From contig NZ_JACBGH010000008.1 of the NCBI RefSeq assembly GCF_013391695.1, forward strand, positions 1 to 64,000: a DNA stretch of 64,000 bases. Direction: 5' to 3'. This DNA is from Thiomicrorhabdus cannonii. GTDB taxonomy: Bacteria; Pseudomonadota; Gammaproteobacteria; Thiomicrospirales; Thiomicrospiraceae. Position 1 is the stretch's first letter, and each line of letters begins with the position of its first letter. The translations under genes were made by a program, and so were the position numbers. The notes below the pieces were generated by a model. The model ran no database searches, was not told the DNA's origin, and worked only from the letters and a program-made list of their open reading frames with translations. Below, one piece after another: positions 53,893 to 62,605 of the stretch.

Positions 53893-56112
<2,220 letters not shown>

Positions 56113-56991: not shown

Positions 56992-57272
56992 TATGCGTCT
57001 GCCTTGTTTAATACTTTGGCTTTGTAGATAAAACTGCCAAAGGGGATCAGCGAGGCGATAAAACCCAACAGGGTTTGATTGGCATTCAGGCGAGAGCTCA
57101 TCAATCCCCACAGCAGCAACACATTGAAAGTGATGAAAAGCGCGCCGTGAATCGGGCCGATGATCGAAACCGCTTCGGGCAGGTCGAGCAAGCGCTTAAG
57201 CGGCACCGCAATAAACAGCAGGAGCAGCAAGGAGCTGCCTTCCAGTATGGAAAAAAGACGTAATAACTTCAT
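56991..57272 (-). CDS. DUF3817-like small membrane protein
   Basis: A 93-residue protein with three membrane helices: LRLFSILEGSSLLLLLFIAV, the central GPIHGALFITFNVLLLWGLM and TLLGFIASLIPFGSFIYKAK. The EG and PIHG motifs match DUF3817. The function is unknown. The ATG at 57272 has AGGACA upstream. It begins a small unit with the thioesterase and NifX-like genes, downstream of the respiratory operon's terminator. Confidence 0.75.
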   Translation of the reverse strand: MKLLRLFSILEGSSLLLLLFIAVPLKRLLDLPEAVSIIGPIHGALFITFNVLLLWGLMSSRLNANQTLLGFIASLIPFGSFIYKAKVLNKADA

Positions 57273-57290: not shown

Positions 57291-57325
57291 AAAAGCCTCC
57301 CACAATCGCGATTGTGAGAGGCTTT
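57291..57325 (-). terminator. Intrinsic terminator of the sulfide-respiratory operon
   Basis: On the minus strand AAAGCCTC...GAGGCTTTT encloses the palindrome CACAATCGCGATTGTG, giving a long stem followed by T's. It marks the end of the operon after the 32-residue peptide gene. Confidence 0.88.
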
Positions 57326-57338
57326 GTGCACGGTGTAC

Positions 57339-57437
57339 TTACAGTGATACGACAGTCAGTGTGCTCAACCACCACATCAGAGCAACCGAACCAAACGTGA
57401 GGATCAATCCCCAAATAATGGCTTTAATTCCAGTCAT
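57339..57437 (-). CDS. 32-residue single-helix membrane peptide (CydX-like in size)
   Basis: From ATG at 57437 with AAGGAG 6 bases upstream, the minus strand encodes MTGIKAIIWGLILTFGSVAL followed by MWWLSTLTVVSL and TAA. It has one hydrophobic helix and a short N-terminus. It is too short for routine calling but is well supported by its ribosome binding site, its position directly after the diheme cytochrome gene (10 bp) and before the operon's terminator. Small one-helix subunits of this size (CydX, CydS) are known in cytochrome bd oxidases; sequence similarity is not claimed. Confidence 0.7.
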   Translation of the reverse strand: MTGIKAIIWGLILTFGSVALMWWLSTLTVVSL

Positions 57438-57447
57438 GGCAGACTCC

Positions 57448-58158
57448 TTATGGTTTACGGTTTAGGGAGGCGTAGTATTGAGCCAGTGCATCAATCTCCG
57501 CATCCGTTAAATCGTGGGTGAATTGGGACATGCCTGCGTTCACGTCGTTATTGCGATGATGTCCCTGGTAGGCTTTCATGGTACGCACGAAATATTCGGG
57601 CACCTGACCCGCCAGAGCCGGAGTAACGCTGTTGCCTTCACCATGCATGCCGTGGCAGGAGGCGCAAGGCGTAATCATGCGATTAACATCACCTTTGCGC
57701 ACCAGACGATCGGCATGTGCGTGATCCTCCGGACTCAACGCCTGGCTGTACGACCAGGTGGTTACCGGGTTGGAGGCGTAAAACGCGGCGACATCGGCAA
57801 TCTGCTGATCGTCCATTGCCTGGGCGATTTTCACCATGATTTCGGCCTGCTTGTAATCCTCCCAACGACGGCCGTCACGGTAATCCAACATCATTTTGAT
57901 GGTGTAGTCCGTGGTTTGGCCATTGAGCGAAGCATAGTTGCGCGAAGGCGACTCGCCTTTTTCACCGTGACAGGCATTACACATCATCTGTTCGTGAATC
58001 TGCTGACCACGCGTCACATCGCCGGCCGGCATAGCTCTTAGTTGATTTTCCAGAGCGAAATTACTCCAGGGGTTTGCGTCGGGCTTGGCGTCATGGCCGG
58101 CCAAGGCGACACCGCTCATCCCGATGAGGGCGGCGGCTAAAAGGGTTTGTTTAAACAT
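57448..58158 (-). CDS. Diheme cytochrome c, FccA-like
   Basis: A 236-residue periplasmic cytochrome. Seen: signal peptide MFKQTLLAAALIGMSGVALA, first heme site CNACH (about residue 60) and second CASCH (about 165), each domain followed by a class I fold, with late LTDAEIDALAQYYASL. It could be the heme subunit of flavocytochrome c sulfide dehydrogenase, since the flavoprotein gene is directly upstream, or a cytochrome c4-like shuttle. The ATG at 58158 has GGAGGAAC upstream. Confidence 0.85.
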   Translation of the reverse strand: MFKQTLLAAALIGMSGVALAGHDAKPDANPWSNFALENQLRAMPAGDVTRGQQIHEQMMCNACHGEKGESPSRNYASLNGQTTDYTIKMMLDYRDGRRWEDYKQAEIMVKIAQAMDDQQIADVAAFYASNPVTTWSYSQALSPEDHAHADRLVRKGDVNRMITPCASCHGMHGEGNSVTPALAGQVPEYFVRTMKAYQGHHRNNDVNAGMSQFTHDLTDAEIDALAQYYASLNRKP

Positions 58159-58181
58159 ACTCGGTTCCTCCACCACGGCGA

Positions 58182-59513
58182 TCAAGAAAAGACATCTTTG
58201 ACAAATTCACGCTGCCAGTTTTTCTGGTAAACGGCTTCCAGAATCGGCTGAGCAGGTTTGTCGGTGATGGGCGAAACGCCGGCGGATTTGCCTTTGGCCA
58301 CAATACGGCCATCACGTACCTCGTAGATGGCTGCAATGGATACGCCATAATTCTGGCCGGCCAAGCTATAACAGACATTGGAATAGATGGCTTTGCCGGG
58401 TGCGTTGCCTTTGAGGGCGTCGGCAATGGCTTGGGCGCAGACTTTAGCCTGTGAATTGGCCGAGTAACCGGATTTTGGCATTTCATCGGCAATGCTACTG
58501 TCGCCTAGCACGTAGACTTCTTTATGCAGAGCCGATTCCATGGTGTCACGCTGAATCGGGCACCATCCGGAACTGTCGGTCAAACCGATGATCTGCGCCA
58601 GTTTACCGGCACGCTGGTTGGGGATGATGTTGATCAGATCAGCCTTGTAACTGCCGCCTTCGGTTTCCACGGTCATGTTTTTGGCGTCCAGACGCAGTAC
58701 GCGTCCCCCTTCCGAACCGGAGACCCATTCAATCAGAGAGTTATCCGATTTGTAACCGTAAAGACGTTCCCAGGCTTTCTTGAAAGGCACGTCTTTGGTG
58801 AAGCGGTCTTTAGGGTCCAGCACCAGTAGTTTGGCAGTAGGGTTATGTTCTTTGAAATACTCAGCAAAGAACGAGGCACGCTCATAAGGTCCCGGAGGGC
58901 AGCGGAACGGATTTTGCGGCGTGGCAATAATCGCCGTGCCGCCTTGCGGCAGGGCGAGTAACTGACGACGCAGTTCCAGTGTTTGCGGTCCGGCTTTGTA
59001 AGCGTGCGGGAAGGCGCCTTCGGCAAGTGTTGCGTCATATCCCTCATAGTCTTCGAAGCGGAAATCAATCCCCGGAGAGACGACGAGTTTGTCGTAGCTG
59101 AAGGTATCACCTTTTGCGGTCCGAACGGTTTTCTTGTCAAAATCCGCACCGATGACCGTGTCGATAACCACATTCACGTTGTATTTGTTTTTGATGGTGT
59201 CCAAATTGAATGTCAGTTCATCCAAGGTGTGCATGCCGATAATCACGTCGTTACTGCGTAGACACGTGATGTATTCTGGGTACTGCTCGATGATGGTGAT
59301 TTTGACATCTGGATCGGCAAAGCGCAGATATTTTGCCAAAGTAGCACCACCGACACCGCCACCCAGTACAACGACATGGGCCGCCGATTTAGCGTAGGCC
59401 TGTTGGCTGGCACCAAAAATACCGGTGCCCGCTACGGCGGTAGCGCCGAAGAGTTTGATCAGGTCGCGACGGGTGATCTTGCTGTCAAATTGTTTATTTT
59501 CGAGTTGGCTCAT
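58182..59513 (-). CDS. fccB: Flavocytochrome c sulfide dehydrogenase, flavoprotein subunit
   Basis: Oxidises sulfide to sulfur in the periplasm and passes electrons to heme c. Seen: Tat signal TRRDLIKLFGATAVAG with cut near AYA-K, FAD-binding VVVLGGGVGGATLAKYL (about residue 48), RCPPGPYERASFFAEYF and NVCYSLAG, which hold the cysteines near the flavin, and VYVLGDSSIADEMPKSGYSAN for FAD. Its 443 residues match FccB. The ATG overlaps the upstream cytochrome stop (ATGA). Position in one operon with oxidase-like subunits is unusual. Confidence 0.93.
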   Translation of the reverse strand: MSQLENKQFDSKITRRDLIKLFGATAVAGTGIFGASQQAYAKSAAHVVVLGGGVGGATLAKYLRFADPDVKITIIEQYPEYITCLRSNDVIIGMHTLDELTFNLDTIKNKYNVNVVIDTVIGADFDKKTVRTAKGDTFSYDKLVVSPGIDFRFEDYEGYDATLAEGAFPHAYKAGPQTLELRRQLLALPQGGTAIIATPQNPFRCPPGPYERASFFAEYFKEHNPTAKLLVLDPKDRFTKDVPFKKAWERLYGYKSDNSLIEWVSGSEGGRVLRLDAKNMTVETEGGSYKADLINIIPNQRAGKLAQIIGLTDSSGWCPIQRDTMESALHKEVYVLGDSSIADEMPKSGYSANSQAKVCAQAIADALKGNAPGKAIYSNVCYSLAGQNYGVSIAAIYEVRDGRIVAKGKSAGVSPITDKPAQPILEAVYQKNWQREFVKDVFS

Positions 59514-59890
59514 TGTTGACCTCCTGTCGAACGGGCTGTTGCATCAGCCTCCAAGGCTTCGTTCAGACTTGTGTTTTCCCATTGCTTGACGGGTTGTTTT
59601 TCAAACCAGTAAGCCATGGCTTTAATTTCTTCATCGGTAAAGCCGCGCGCCACGCGATCCATAATGATCGCAGGGCGGGTGCCTTCGCGGTAGGCGATCA
59701 TGGCGTCGATAAACTGTTTAGCAGGCATTCCCGCCAGTGGTGGCATGGCTTCGACAAATTCTTGGCCATTGGTGCCGTGGCAGGGAGCACACTGCCAGGC
59801 CATGGCACTGCCGCTGGCCATGATTTCGGCCGAAGCATTTTGCGCCATGGCCAGGAATCCGGCAGAAAGAATCAAATTACGTAATTTCAT
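59510..59890 (-). CDS. Monoheme cytochrome c
   Basis: A 126-residue cytochrome c. Seen: signal peptide MKLRNLILSAGFLAMAQNASA, heme site CAPCHGTNG, the central FVEAMPPLAGMPAKQF, and DRVARGFTDEEIKAMAYWF at the end. The ATG at 59890 has AAGGAGTACCGC upstream. It overlaps fccB by 4 bases, so the two are coupled. It is similar in layout to one half of the diheme protein on the other side of fccB and could be a heme partner for either flavoprotein or oxidase. Confidence 0.85.
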   Translation of the reverse strand: MKLRNLILSAGFLAMAQNASAEIMASGSAMAWQCAPCHGTNGQEFVEAMPPLAGMPAKQFIDAMIAYREGTRPAIIMDRVARGFTDEEIKAMAYWFEKQPVKQWENTSLNEALEADATARSTGGQQ

Positions 59891-59900
59891 GCGGTACTCC

Positions 59901-61148
59901 TTATTTAGCCCAGATATAGAAACCAACGACAAAGAACTGCACCAACCACAGGGCAACAATCCAGATAGCGATAGTACCCATTTTGTTGACCAGAGGACTT
60001 GGCGTGTAAACACCGACGGTTTGTCCGGTTTTCCAGGCAATTGTCAAGAAGTAGGACAAGACGCTACCACCGACAATCGCAAAGGTCAGGAAGAACAGGC
60101 CAGTTGAGTACCAGTCCATAACGATCTTGTAGTCCATGAAATCATAGTGGAAGGTGTCGTTAATGATGCCGTAACGCAACATCTCACGCGAAATCGCCAC
60201 TACCAGACCGATCACCAGCGCCATTGGCAGAGCCATGTAGCTGCACAGTTTGGCTTCGCCCTGTAGACGGATCTGTGCCCACAGCGCAAAAGCGATTACT
60301 GCAACGCCACCTGCGATACCCCAGAAAGAGGTTGCAAAGTTACCTGCTGTTTCTGGAAGCGTCATCATCCAAGCCACATATAGAACCGCTGAGATGACGG
60401 AACCGACTTTGATCCACTTTTTACCCACTTCCGAGGCCCAGTTCAGGTAGGCGTGGTCGGCATCTTCACGCACCGACTTAAAGCGGCGGTAAGTGACCAG
60501 CATGGCACCAGTAACTGGAATCGCCATGCTGATAAAGAATGCAAAGCGCCATAGGTTGTATGCATGCAGTTTGCTGCCCGAATAGTCGGCTACGCCGTTT
60601 GGAACAAACCACTCTTTCCATTGTTCCGGATGCAGCATGGCGGAAGTCAGGCTGTGCATAATGAAACCCACCACCAGCATGAGGGCGATGCTTAACAGGA
60701 TCGACCAGCGTGCTTTAGGCTGCACCGTTTTGTCTTTGTTTTTGCTGTTTACAAAGTAGAAGTAGTACATTGCCCAGTAAGCCAGAATCAGAATGACGAT
60801 AAAGGCGATAACCCAGAACGCTGACAGCACGTTAGAGGTGTACCAGTGTGGATCATAGATAACTTGTACAAACAGCAGAGGGGCAACCCCGACTACGATG
60901 GCAACGGAGACCGACACTTTGGAGATTTCCAACATGGCAGAACCCAGGCGGCGCCAGTAGCTGTTGTTGTTAAATGCGCCAAAGATAGCAATGGCGGATG
61001 TGCCCAGCATCAGCTGTACAAACAGAATATGCAGAGCAAAGGTTAAGACTCCCAACCCGATGAAAATGATCGGGTAGGTCGGAATCCCTGCGGGGTTACG
61101 CAGGGCGTACATCATCTCAGTGACCTGAGCGATTTGTTGAGCATCCAT
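59901..61148 (-). CDS. Polytopic membrane subunit resembling CydA, no heme c domain
   Basis: A 415-residue protein with about nine membrane helices. Near the start FALHILFVQLMLGTSAIAIFGAF (His40) echoes the heme-ligand helix of cytochrome bd subunit I (YHFLFVPLTLG). It is more like CydA than CydB by eye. It has no CxxCH. It probably pairs with the next upstream gene as the second half of a two-subunit oxidase-like complex. The ATG overlaps the upstream stop (TAATG). The relation is family-level and from memory; a search could show a different family. Confidence 0.55.
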   Translation of the reverse strand: MDAQQIAQVTEMMYALRNPAGIPTYPIIFIGLGVLTFALHILFVQLMLGTSAIAIFGAFNNNSYWRRLGSAMLEISKVSVSVAIVVGVAPLLFVQVIYDPHWYTSNVLSAFWVIAFIVILILAYWAMYYFYFVNSKNKDKTVQPKARWSILLSIALMLVVGFIMHSLTSAMLHPEQWKEWFVPNGVADYSGSKLHAYNLWRFAFFISMAIPVTGAMLVTYRRFKSVREDADHAYLNWASEVGKKWIKVGSVISAVLYVAWMMTLPETAGNFATSFWGIAGGVAVIAFALWAQIRLQGEAKLCSYMALPMALVIGLVVAISREMLRYGIINDTFHYDFMDYKIVMDWYSTGLFFLTFAIVGGSVLSYFLTIAWKTGQTVGVYTPSPLVNKMGTIAIWIVALWLVQFFVVGFYIWAK

Positions 61149-62605
61149 TATTTCACCTCCTGTGGCAGAGATAGGGCGGCTACCTTGTCGCTGGCCTGTT
61201 TTTCAGCCAAGGCACGATCGCGAGTCGCAACTTCTTCTTGAATGGCCACTTTAACCGCTTCGCTGCCACCTTGGTTGTTCAACAGCAGGTAAGCGGAAAG
61301 GGCTTTAACTTCACTGTCAATCATCGGCATTTTCGGCATATAGGCGATATTACCGGTGGTCAGTACCCCTTTGACGTATTTCTCCATACGCTCTTGGGTG
61401 ATGTTGTCAGGGAAGTAACGGTGTAGCGGACGAATCCCCGTTTCACTCGGTGAGTGACAGTTTGAGCAGTAAGTCATGGCAATGAATTCACCGGTTTGGA
61501 TCATATTGCCGTCATTCACTTCACGTAGGTGTTCAGGCGTGAAAGGGTGCGCTTTCAAGATGCCGACTTTTTCGATGGTTGGCAGTTGCGACTGAATATC
61601 CATTCCCGGTACATCGCGCGCAATGACCTGGTTGGAGTAGACGTACTGACCCGCAACATATGGCTTACGCATCGATTCACGCGCGGTCTCTTCGGGCCAC
61701 AAACCAGCCACTAGAATAATGACCGTCATAGCGCCGGCAAAACCTTGCACCAGCACCTGCGGACGCAACATAGTGATAATGAAGTAAGCCAGAGTGCCCG
61801 CCAATACCGCCATAATGCTCGGTACGAAGTAGTCAGGCAGACGGTTTTCCATTACCAATAGCGCTTGTGATGGTACCGATGTCAGATACCATTGGAACAT
61901 TGCCGCACCGATTAGGGTGGAGATAATCCCCAACCAACCCAGTTTGCGCGCCATTTCCTTCTTGAAAGCCGGATCTTTGATGCCGGCAACAACAATGCCA
62001 CCCACAACCGCTGTCATGGTGAACATGAATGCCATACGCATACCCAGCTGAATAAAGGTATTGGTGCCGTAGAAGCCGTTCAGATAACCGCCTTCTTCAA
62101 ACCAAGCTTCCTTACCTGGCAGCATCATGAATGACAGGATACCGACGATAATCACCATCGTTGCCAATGAGGCCATACCGAAAATCACCGAGATTTTCAT
62201 GTGGGTTTTTTTGTCAACACGGCCTACCAGATAAACAATCATATAGACGCCGACGACTTCGATAACGAAGAAGACCCATTCCGTGGCCCACTTCCATACG
62301 AAGGAGTGAATCAGGGCGCCGATACCGTTAGGGCTGGCGACGGTTGTCGAATACCAGATGCCAGGACCTGTAATGGAACCGGCAACATAGGTGAATACCA
62401 GTAAAAACAGACCATACTTCTTGATGAAGTCCAAAAGATCTTCACGATCTTCGCGGTAAGCTTTGTGGGAGAGATAAGCGAAGAGCAACGCCGCACCCAC
62501 GGAGGTGTGAGAGGCGAGCACATGGAAAGTTGCAATCAGCGCAACTACCCAGCCGGAACCAACCATTGGTTCATACCAGGTGGGGTAAAGGCTAATCAAG
62601 TCCAT
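61148..62605 (-). CDS. Cytochrome bd-like membrane subunit I with fused cytochrome c domain
   Basis: A 485-residue protein. Helices fill about residues 15-335; IATFHVLASHTSVGAALLF (His28, His33) and WKWATEWVFFVIEVVGVYM (Glu) resemble the heme-binding helices 1 and 3 of CydA. The quinol-loop region of ordinary CydA is not recognisable. After a periplasmic linker a class I cytochrome c domain follows, with CSNCH at about 380 and Met ligands in AYMPKMPMID. bd-superfamily members with a fused cytochrome c and no quinol site are known to exist. Here electron donor is likely a cytochrome c, not quinol. Confidence 0.65.
   Translation of the reverse strand: MDLISLYPTWYEPMVGSGWVVALIATFHVLASHTSVGAALLFAYLSHKAYREDREDLLDFIKKYGLFLLVFTYVAGSITGPGIWYSTTVASPNGIGALIHSFVWKWATEWVFFVIEVVGVYMIVYLVGRVDKKTHMKISVIFGMASLATMVIIVGILSFMMLPGKEAWFEEGGYLNGFYGTNTFIQLGMRMAFMFTMTAVVGGIVVAGIKDPAFKKEMARKLGWLGIISTLIGAAMFQWYLTSVPSQALLVMENRLPDYFVPSIMAVLAGTLAYFIITMLRPQVLVQGFAGAMTVIILVAGLWPEETARESMRKPYVAGQYVYSNQVIARDVPGMDIQSQLPTIEKVGILKAHPFTPEHLREVNDGNMIQTGEFIAMTYCSNCHSPSETGIRPLHRYFPDNITQERMEKYVKGVLTTGNIAYMPKMPMIDSEVKALSAYLLLNNQGGSEAVKVAIQEEVATRDRALAEKQASDKVAALSLPQEVK

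Follow-up and report, generated by a model that had tools for sequence, protein, structure and literature searches.

The closest described relatives of the locus studied here are found among oxidases of the cytochrome bd superfamily and among flavocytochromes c. The locus is a six-gene operon on the minus strand of a 64,000-nucleotide stretch of the genome of Thiomicrorhabdus cannonii (contig NZ_JACBGH010000008.1, positions 1 to 64,000, hereafter the window), and encodes two CydA-like membrane proteins, here called subunits A and B, the flavoprotein FccB of a sulfide dehydrogenase, two c-type cytochromes, c1 and c2, and a short peptide. Within the bd superfamily, we take the OR-C type to be a bd-like protein with a heme c domain and without a quinol site, and we know of no biochemical characterisation of it. 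By features, subunits A and B resemble this type in having a bd fold, no recognisable quinol loop and, on A, a C-terminal heme c domain. The OR-C type (Murali, Gennis & Hemp 2021) is cited in passages of PMC13189123, PMC10839748 and PMC11707229. The OR-N CydAA' of Nitrospira and Nitrospina likewise has presumably paired CydA-like proteins, missing quinol-binding residues and cytochrome c as its presumed donor (PMC10839748, PMC3578206, PMC12342949), and it likewise stands beside a lithotrophic dehydrogenase, the nitrite oxidoreductase (NXR), with mono- and diheme cytochromes c, the dehydrogenase being FccB in our operon. The CydA-like protein of the NXR cluster is described with 14 transmembrane helices (PMC3578206), whereas subunit A has about eight and a fused heme c.

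With the canonical CydAB (the qOR type of Escherichia coli and Geobacillus), subunit A shares the fold, the positions of the heme d and b595 ligands and E99/E107, but it differs from it in the absence of the b558 histidine, in a Q-loop that was not recognised and in the extra heme c domain, and the sequence of B is nearer to A than to CydB. With FccAB (PDB entries 1fcd, from Allochromatium, and 5n1t), the operon FccB shares the catalytic disulfide and, in this species, the flavin-linking cysteine, but it forms a separate lineage that always adjoins bd-like genes. Visser and colleagues reportedly described in 1997, to judge from the title of their work as cited in PMC9563475, a membrane-bound flavocytochrome c of Thiobacillus sp. 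W5; this would be a membrane-bound sulfide dehydrogenase of a sulfur oxidiser, as our model would predict, and could also be a different FccAB. A bd-like operon coupled to fccB was not found described in the literature searched, which is not proof of novelty. We consider it probable that the products of the operon form a chain, independent of quinone, that carries electrons from sulfide to oxygen through a copper-free bd-like oxidase.

Subunits A and B and their heme ligands

Subunit A (61148-62605, minus strand; 485 residues) has about eight transmembrane helices and a C-terminal periplasmic heme c domain with the motif CSNCH at residues 380-384 (C380-x-x-C383-H384), and subunit B (59901-61148, minus strand; 415 residues) is a second CydA-like membrane protein, with about ten helices and no heme c. 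C380, C383 and H384 are invariant among the A family members aligned, as is M423, the likely distal ligand of heme c. The positive-inside pattern gives A an N-out/C-out topology, which places its heme c domain in the periplasm together with FccB, c1 and c2.

The relationship of both subunits to the bd superfamily emerged from family profiles and structure models. In Pfam, the A protein of the window taken alone matched cytochrome c models only and not PF01654 (Cyt_bd_oxida_I), a model that matches 20 of 36 A family members (best 1.2e-5). Profile alignment with hhalign related A to CydA (E 1e-5, clearest over the N-terminal helices) and A to B (E 1.2e-8), and the two subunits are assigned as paralogues from these profiles. 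AlphaFold models were obtained with a predicted local distance difference test (pLDDT) score of 73 and a predicted template modelling (pTM) score of 0.60 for A, and with a pLDDT of 88 for B. When the PDB was searched with Foldseek, the best match of the A model was 5doq_A (prob 1.00, E 6.6e-4) and the next nine were also bd oxidase subunits; for the B model, bd subunits took the top 12 places (prob 1.00), five of them with E<1e-3 (9r2g_A and 8b4o_A, 2e-5 each). Sequence searches of the PDB with the profiles of A and B returned cytochromes c or nothing. Two other assignments were rejected. B was not recognisable by sequence as a CydB homologue (E 0.016 in hhalign against CydB) and is related to A instead; Foldseek with the B model does not separate CydA from CydB. 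A membrane subunit of the polysulfide-reductase (NrfD) type was discarded for A and B, the NrfD-like chains of alternative complex III scoring in Foldseek far below the bd subunits. Sequence profiles and models place A and B within the bd superfamily, and the initial annotation, which had called both proteins CydA-like, is upheld in that the folds and the ligand positions of A are kept.

In bd-II of E. coli, heme d is bound by H19, heme b595 by E445 and heme b558 by H186 and M393 (PMC8585947). Residues H28, E109, E116, E310 and R313 of A do not vary across the 21 diverse members compared, among them relatives with an identity of only 28%. By alignment and motif, H28 corresponds to H19 of CydA, E109/E116 to E99/E107 and E310 to the E445 region, and the b595 ligand motif E-x-x-R-x-P-[WYF]-x-x-G is present in all 55 A proteins; the C-terminal ligand match rests on this motif, because in global hhalign alignments neither A nor B could be matched to CydA past the first helices. 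The spacing between E109 and E116 is 7, one shorter than in E. coli, and is consistent with the Geobacillus enzyme, in which the Leu101 insertion is absent (PMC8585947). No counterpart of the b558 histidine was found, the H186 column being occupied in A by F193 in 20 of the 21 members and by L in the other, and M393 and the Q-loop residues K252 and E257 have no counterpart in the A alignments, in C-terminal regions of low confidence; all four residues are kept in the 26 control CydAs. The oxygen site of A appears, from these alignments, to be kept; the b558 histidine is gone and a heme c domain has been added. The loss of this histidine and the lack of a recognisable quinol loop both fit the earlier proposal that the operon bypasses quinone. 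In subunit B, H40 and R325 are present in 19/19 members and E322 in 18/19 (H in one), and B may hold heme too.

FccB, its cytochromes and their inheritance with A and B

FccB (58182-59513, minus strand; 443 residues) is homologous over its whole length to the Allochromatium protein of 1fcd (E 4e-119) and scores above cut-off with PF21706 and PF09242. C205 and C381 (C161 and C337 of 1fcd), which we take to form the catalytic disulfide, are invariant in the 56 FccBs compared, and C84 (C42 of 1fcd, presumably the cysteine that links the flavin covalently) is kept in this species and in 29 of the 56. The first identification of this gene product was thereby confirmed, and FccB is classified by homology as the authentic flavoprotein of a flavocytochrome c sulfide dehydrogenase, for which sulfide oxidation is predicted. 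It carries a Tat signal (ITRRDLIKLF) and was for this reason assigned to the periplasm.

The association of this gene with the membrane subunits was followed in 84,980 genomes, with a scan that reaches only relatives sharing short peptide patterns. It yielded 57 loci, 51 with enough flanking DNA to be tested and six truncated at contig ends, and fccB adjoins the A-B pair in 51/51 testable loci, a recurrence that rules out a chance gene cluster. The order A-B-c1-FccB-c2 is found in 44 loci, whereas in seven loci of Halothiobacillaceae type c1-FccB stands ahead of A-B and c2 behind. The carriers of the operon are mainly autotrophs that oxidise sulfur; sulfur oxidisers that have it include Thiomicrorhabdus, Thiomicrospira, Halothiobacillus, Thiobacillus, Thiomonas and Thiothrix, and the closest named relatives of the operon are Thiomicrorhabdus. 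The initial annotation had made its case depend on fccB being conserved with the membrane proteins in relatives: within the clade that carries the operon this coupling stands throughout the testable loci, but fccB is not obligate in the wider A-B family, this genome included.

Phylogenetic trees gave a consistent picture. Of the 82 sequences in the FccB tree, the 52 operon FccBs, together with a duplicated module that adjoins an A-B operon (L026), were split from the 29 stand-alone FccBs with a branch support of 100/100, and this genome's two further FccBs fell on the stand-alone side. Since the operon FccBs form this separate lineage, FccB is regarded as the dedicated partner of A-B, and free sharing with the other FccBs of the cell was rejected as the simple reading. 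The A proteins beside fccB form one clade (Shimodaira-Hasegawa-like approximate likelihood ratio test, SH-aLRT, 89), with the fccB-free relatives outside, where long branches leave the exact branching order unsure. On the simplest reading of these trees, an A-B-c oxidase that already existed would have acquired FccB once, and the set would then have spread jointly through Gamma- and Betaproteobacteria, reaching at least one alphaproteobacterium (Roseospira). Among 369 gammaproteobacterial genomes, A is present in 10 and FccB in 124, nine of the 10 genomes with A also having FccB, adjacent in seven (Fisher p = 3e-4, with phylogeny ignored, so that the trees are the better evidence). In Thiomicrorhabdus heinhorstiae (L003, 3999-13450), two tandem operons encode identical A proteins and FccBs of two types, 81% and 55% identical to that of the window, which suggests that A-B was homogenised while the dehydrogenase diverged.

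Regarding the cytochromes, c1 (59510-59890, minus strand; 126 residues; PF00034, 1.6e-5) is a monoheme and c2 (57448-58158, minus strand; 236 residues; two CxxCH motifs, PF00034, 1e-15) a diheme protein, both with a Sec signal. We assign c1 to FccB, as its probable FccA-type partner, and c2 to A-B, because in Halothiobacillaceae the pair c1-FccB has moved ahead of A-B, with c2 remaining behind. Furthermore, c2 is the probable electron donor to A, since a diheme cytochrome c accompanies A-B also where fccB is absent, as in L080, which holds A-B-c2 without fccB, and in L081, where the diheme cytochrome is fused to B.

Proposed electron path and competing explanations

In the proposed chain, FccB would oxidise sulfide in the periplasm at its flavin and the C205-C381 disulfide, with sulfur or polysulfide as the product. 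Electrons would pass to c1, acting as its FccA, and then, probably through c2 or else directly, to the heme c domain of A, from which they would reach two active-site hemes (a b595/d-like pair with H28 and E310 as ligands) and reduce O2 to water. The protons for oxygen reduction would come from the cytoplasm, so that charge separation would conserve energy without proton pumping. The protein identities, the ligands, the loss of the b558 histidine, the topology and the strict inheritance of a dedicated FccB lineage together with A-B are read from sequence or structure models; O2 would be the acceptor on the strength of ligand homology, and the carrier order, the direction of electron flow, the tolerance to sulfide and the joining of all parts in one physical complex are predictions built on them. 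That A, B, c1, FccB and c2 make up one membrane-bound, copper-free and quinone-free sulfide:oxygen oxidoreductase, a type of enzyme that has yet to be isolated, is put forward tentatively, at somewhat less than an even chance.

The 2.49-Mb genome contains a single heme-copper oxidase, which reads from its sequence as cbb3 (CcoN, then CcoO), and neither a canonical CydA nor a canonical bd was found in it. Being bd-like and, as predicted, copper-free, A-B could remain active even when sulfide inhibits cbb3 or removes its copper. Canonical bd is said, in the title of a 2016 report by Forte and colleagues that PMC8657789 cites, to promote sulfide-resistant respiration. About 1 µM sulfide is enough to inhibit heme-copper oxidases (PMC8657789). 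Together, these two properties mean that the arrangement would suit cells living on sulfide.

Several observations weigh against the proposed chain. In 27 of the 56 FccBs (L018-L056; Thiobacillus, Thiomonas, Thiothrix and Halothiobacillus types), Pro or Gly stands in the place of C84, and the flavin is for that reason probably held non-covalently in them. The model of A, with the scores given above (pLDDT 73, pTM 0.60), is of medium confidence only, and the equivalences of H186 and E445 come from alignment and motif, without superposed coordinates. The two other, stand-alone FccBs of the genome mean that the operon is not its sole sulfide route. A-B pairs without fccB occur in this and other genomes (L066, L080, L081, L082 and L147), and the oxidase can therefore take electrons from other donors. 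Finally, we know of no biochemistry for any A-B protein.

These fccB-free pairs, together with the diheme cytochrome that accompanies A-B in the absence of fccB, are what would be expected if A-B were a general cytochrome c:oxygen oxidase drawing on a common c pool, with fccB merely co-regulated for exposure to sulfide and no dedicated electron path between them. We hold this to be unlikely, because the operon FccBs are one lineage apart from the stand-alone FccBs, those of the same genome included, and because the link to fccB was kept in Halothiobacillaceae when the gene order changed.

The oxygen-site residues bear on a different possibility, in which A-B would not reduce O2 and electrons from FccB and cytochrome c would instead be passed into the quinone pool for reverse electron transport, in the manner of alternative complex III. 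Such a role was once suggested for the bd-like protein of Nitrospina (PMC3578206); in nitrite oxidisers, it has been suspected for bd-like proteins that lack a Q-loop, and autotrophic sulfur oxidisers do need reverse electron flow. However, H28, E109, E116 and E310 are invariant, no quinol-loop residues appear in the alignments, and the fccB-less relatives lie near metal-starvation genes, a better fit to a copper-free oxidase, all of which makes quinone reduction very improbable. A detoxifying oxidase or peroxidase that removes O2, H2O2 or nitric oxide with electrons from sulfide, and conserves no energy, would agree with the known side activities of bd oxidases and with a catalase-peroxidase-like gene near the operon (53899-56112, identified by sequence reading only). 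As no stress regulator was found in the operon and conservation is centred on sulfur-oxidising autotrophs, we give this role, too, little credence, and favour the sulfide:oxygen chain.

Operon layout, fccB-free relatives and significance

An open reading frame check confirmed the six minus-strand genes, from 62605 down to 57339 in the order A, B, c1, FccB, c2 and a 32-residue transmembrane peptide. Subunits A and B overlap by 1 base and c1 and FccB by 4 bases, with gaps of 10-23 bases between the remaining genes, and an intrinsic terminator with a 15-bp stem and a T-rich tail (57325-57292, minus strand) closes the operon; the initial description of six tightly packed genes forming one operon proved accurate in its coordinates and agrees with both overlaps and the terminator hairpin. 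The peptide (57339-57437, minus strand), with a single transmembrane segment, has 17 copies with ribosome-binding sites, which differ by 219 synonymous and 116 nonsynonymous codon changes. From this pattern it is judged a real gene within genomes of Thiomicrorhabdus, Thiomicrospira and Hydrogenovibrio type, and it is a possible accessory subunit similar to CydX or CcoQ; no homologues were found in other operon-bearing lineages. Just beyond the terminator lies a gene for a small DUF3817 membrane protein (56994-57272, minus strand; PF12823, 6.7e-22), and a DUF3817 protein is found near the operon in nine loci, including loci of Thiobacillus, Thiothrix and Thiomicrorhabdus type.

The second A-B pair of this genome (L066, G000:C6, 6047-8729) has no fccB and stands beside ZigA (above cut-off) and a monoheme cytochrome c, and it also adjoins a Zur-like repressor and a gene resembling a TonB copper receptor, both below cut-off. 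It is possibly a copper-free oxidase for metal starvation. Elsewhere, the neighbours of A-B-c on a Methylosinus plasmid include methanobactin genes and a RegBA-like pair (L147, 7001-11943), and those of A-B in a gammaproteobacterium include two Phenol_Hydrox genes of soluble methane monooxygenase-like type (L082, 1286-8031). On Thermus plasmids, A-B adjoins CobW-type GTPases and a component of a metal transporter (for one of them, L148, 6004-10431). Read by neighbourhood, the fccB-free relatives tend to adjoin zinc- or copper-starvation genes; these neighbourhoods fit an oxidase that needs no copper and hint at an ancestral role. Very divergent A-B pairs from two genomes of the same phylum (L114 and L115) might extend the family.

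It is an old question how bacteria can respire sulfide when this compound poisons their heme-copper oxidases. The operon would offer a direct answer, namely a dedicated sulfide dehydrogenase whose electrons reach a copper-free bd-like oxidase over c-type hemes. In addition, O2 reduction by cytochrome-c-oxidising enzymes of the bd superfamily is described as unconfirmed in the literature searched, and this operon may provide a natural donor with which to test it.

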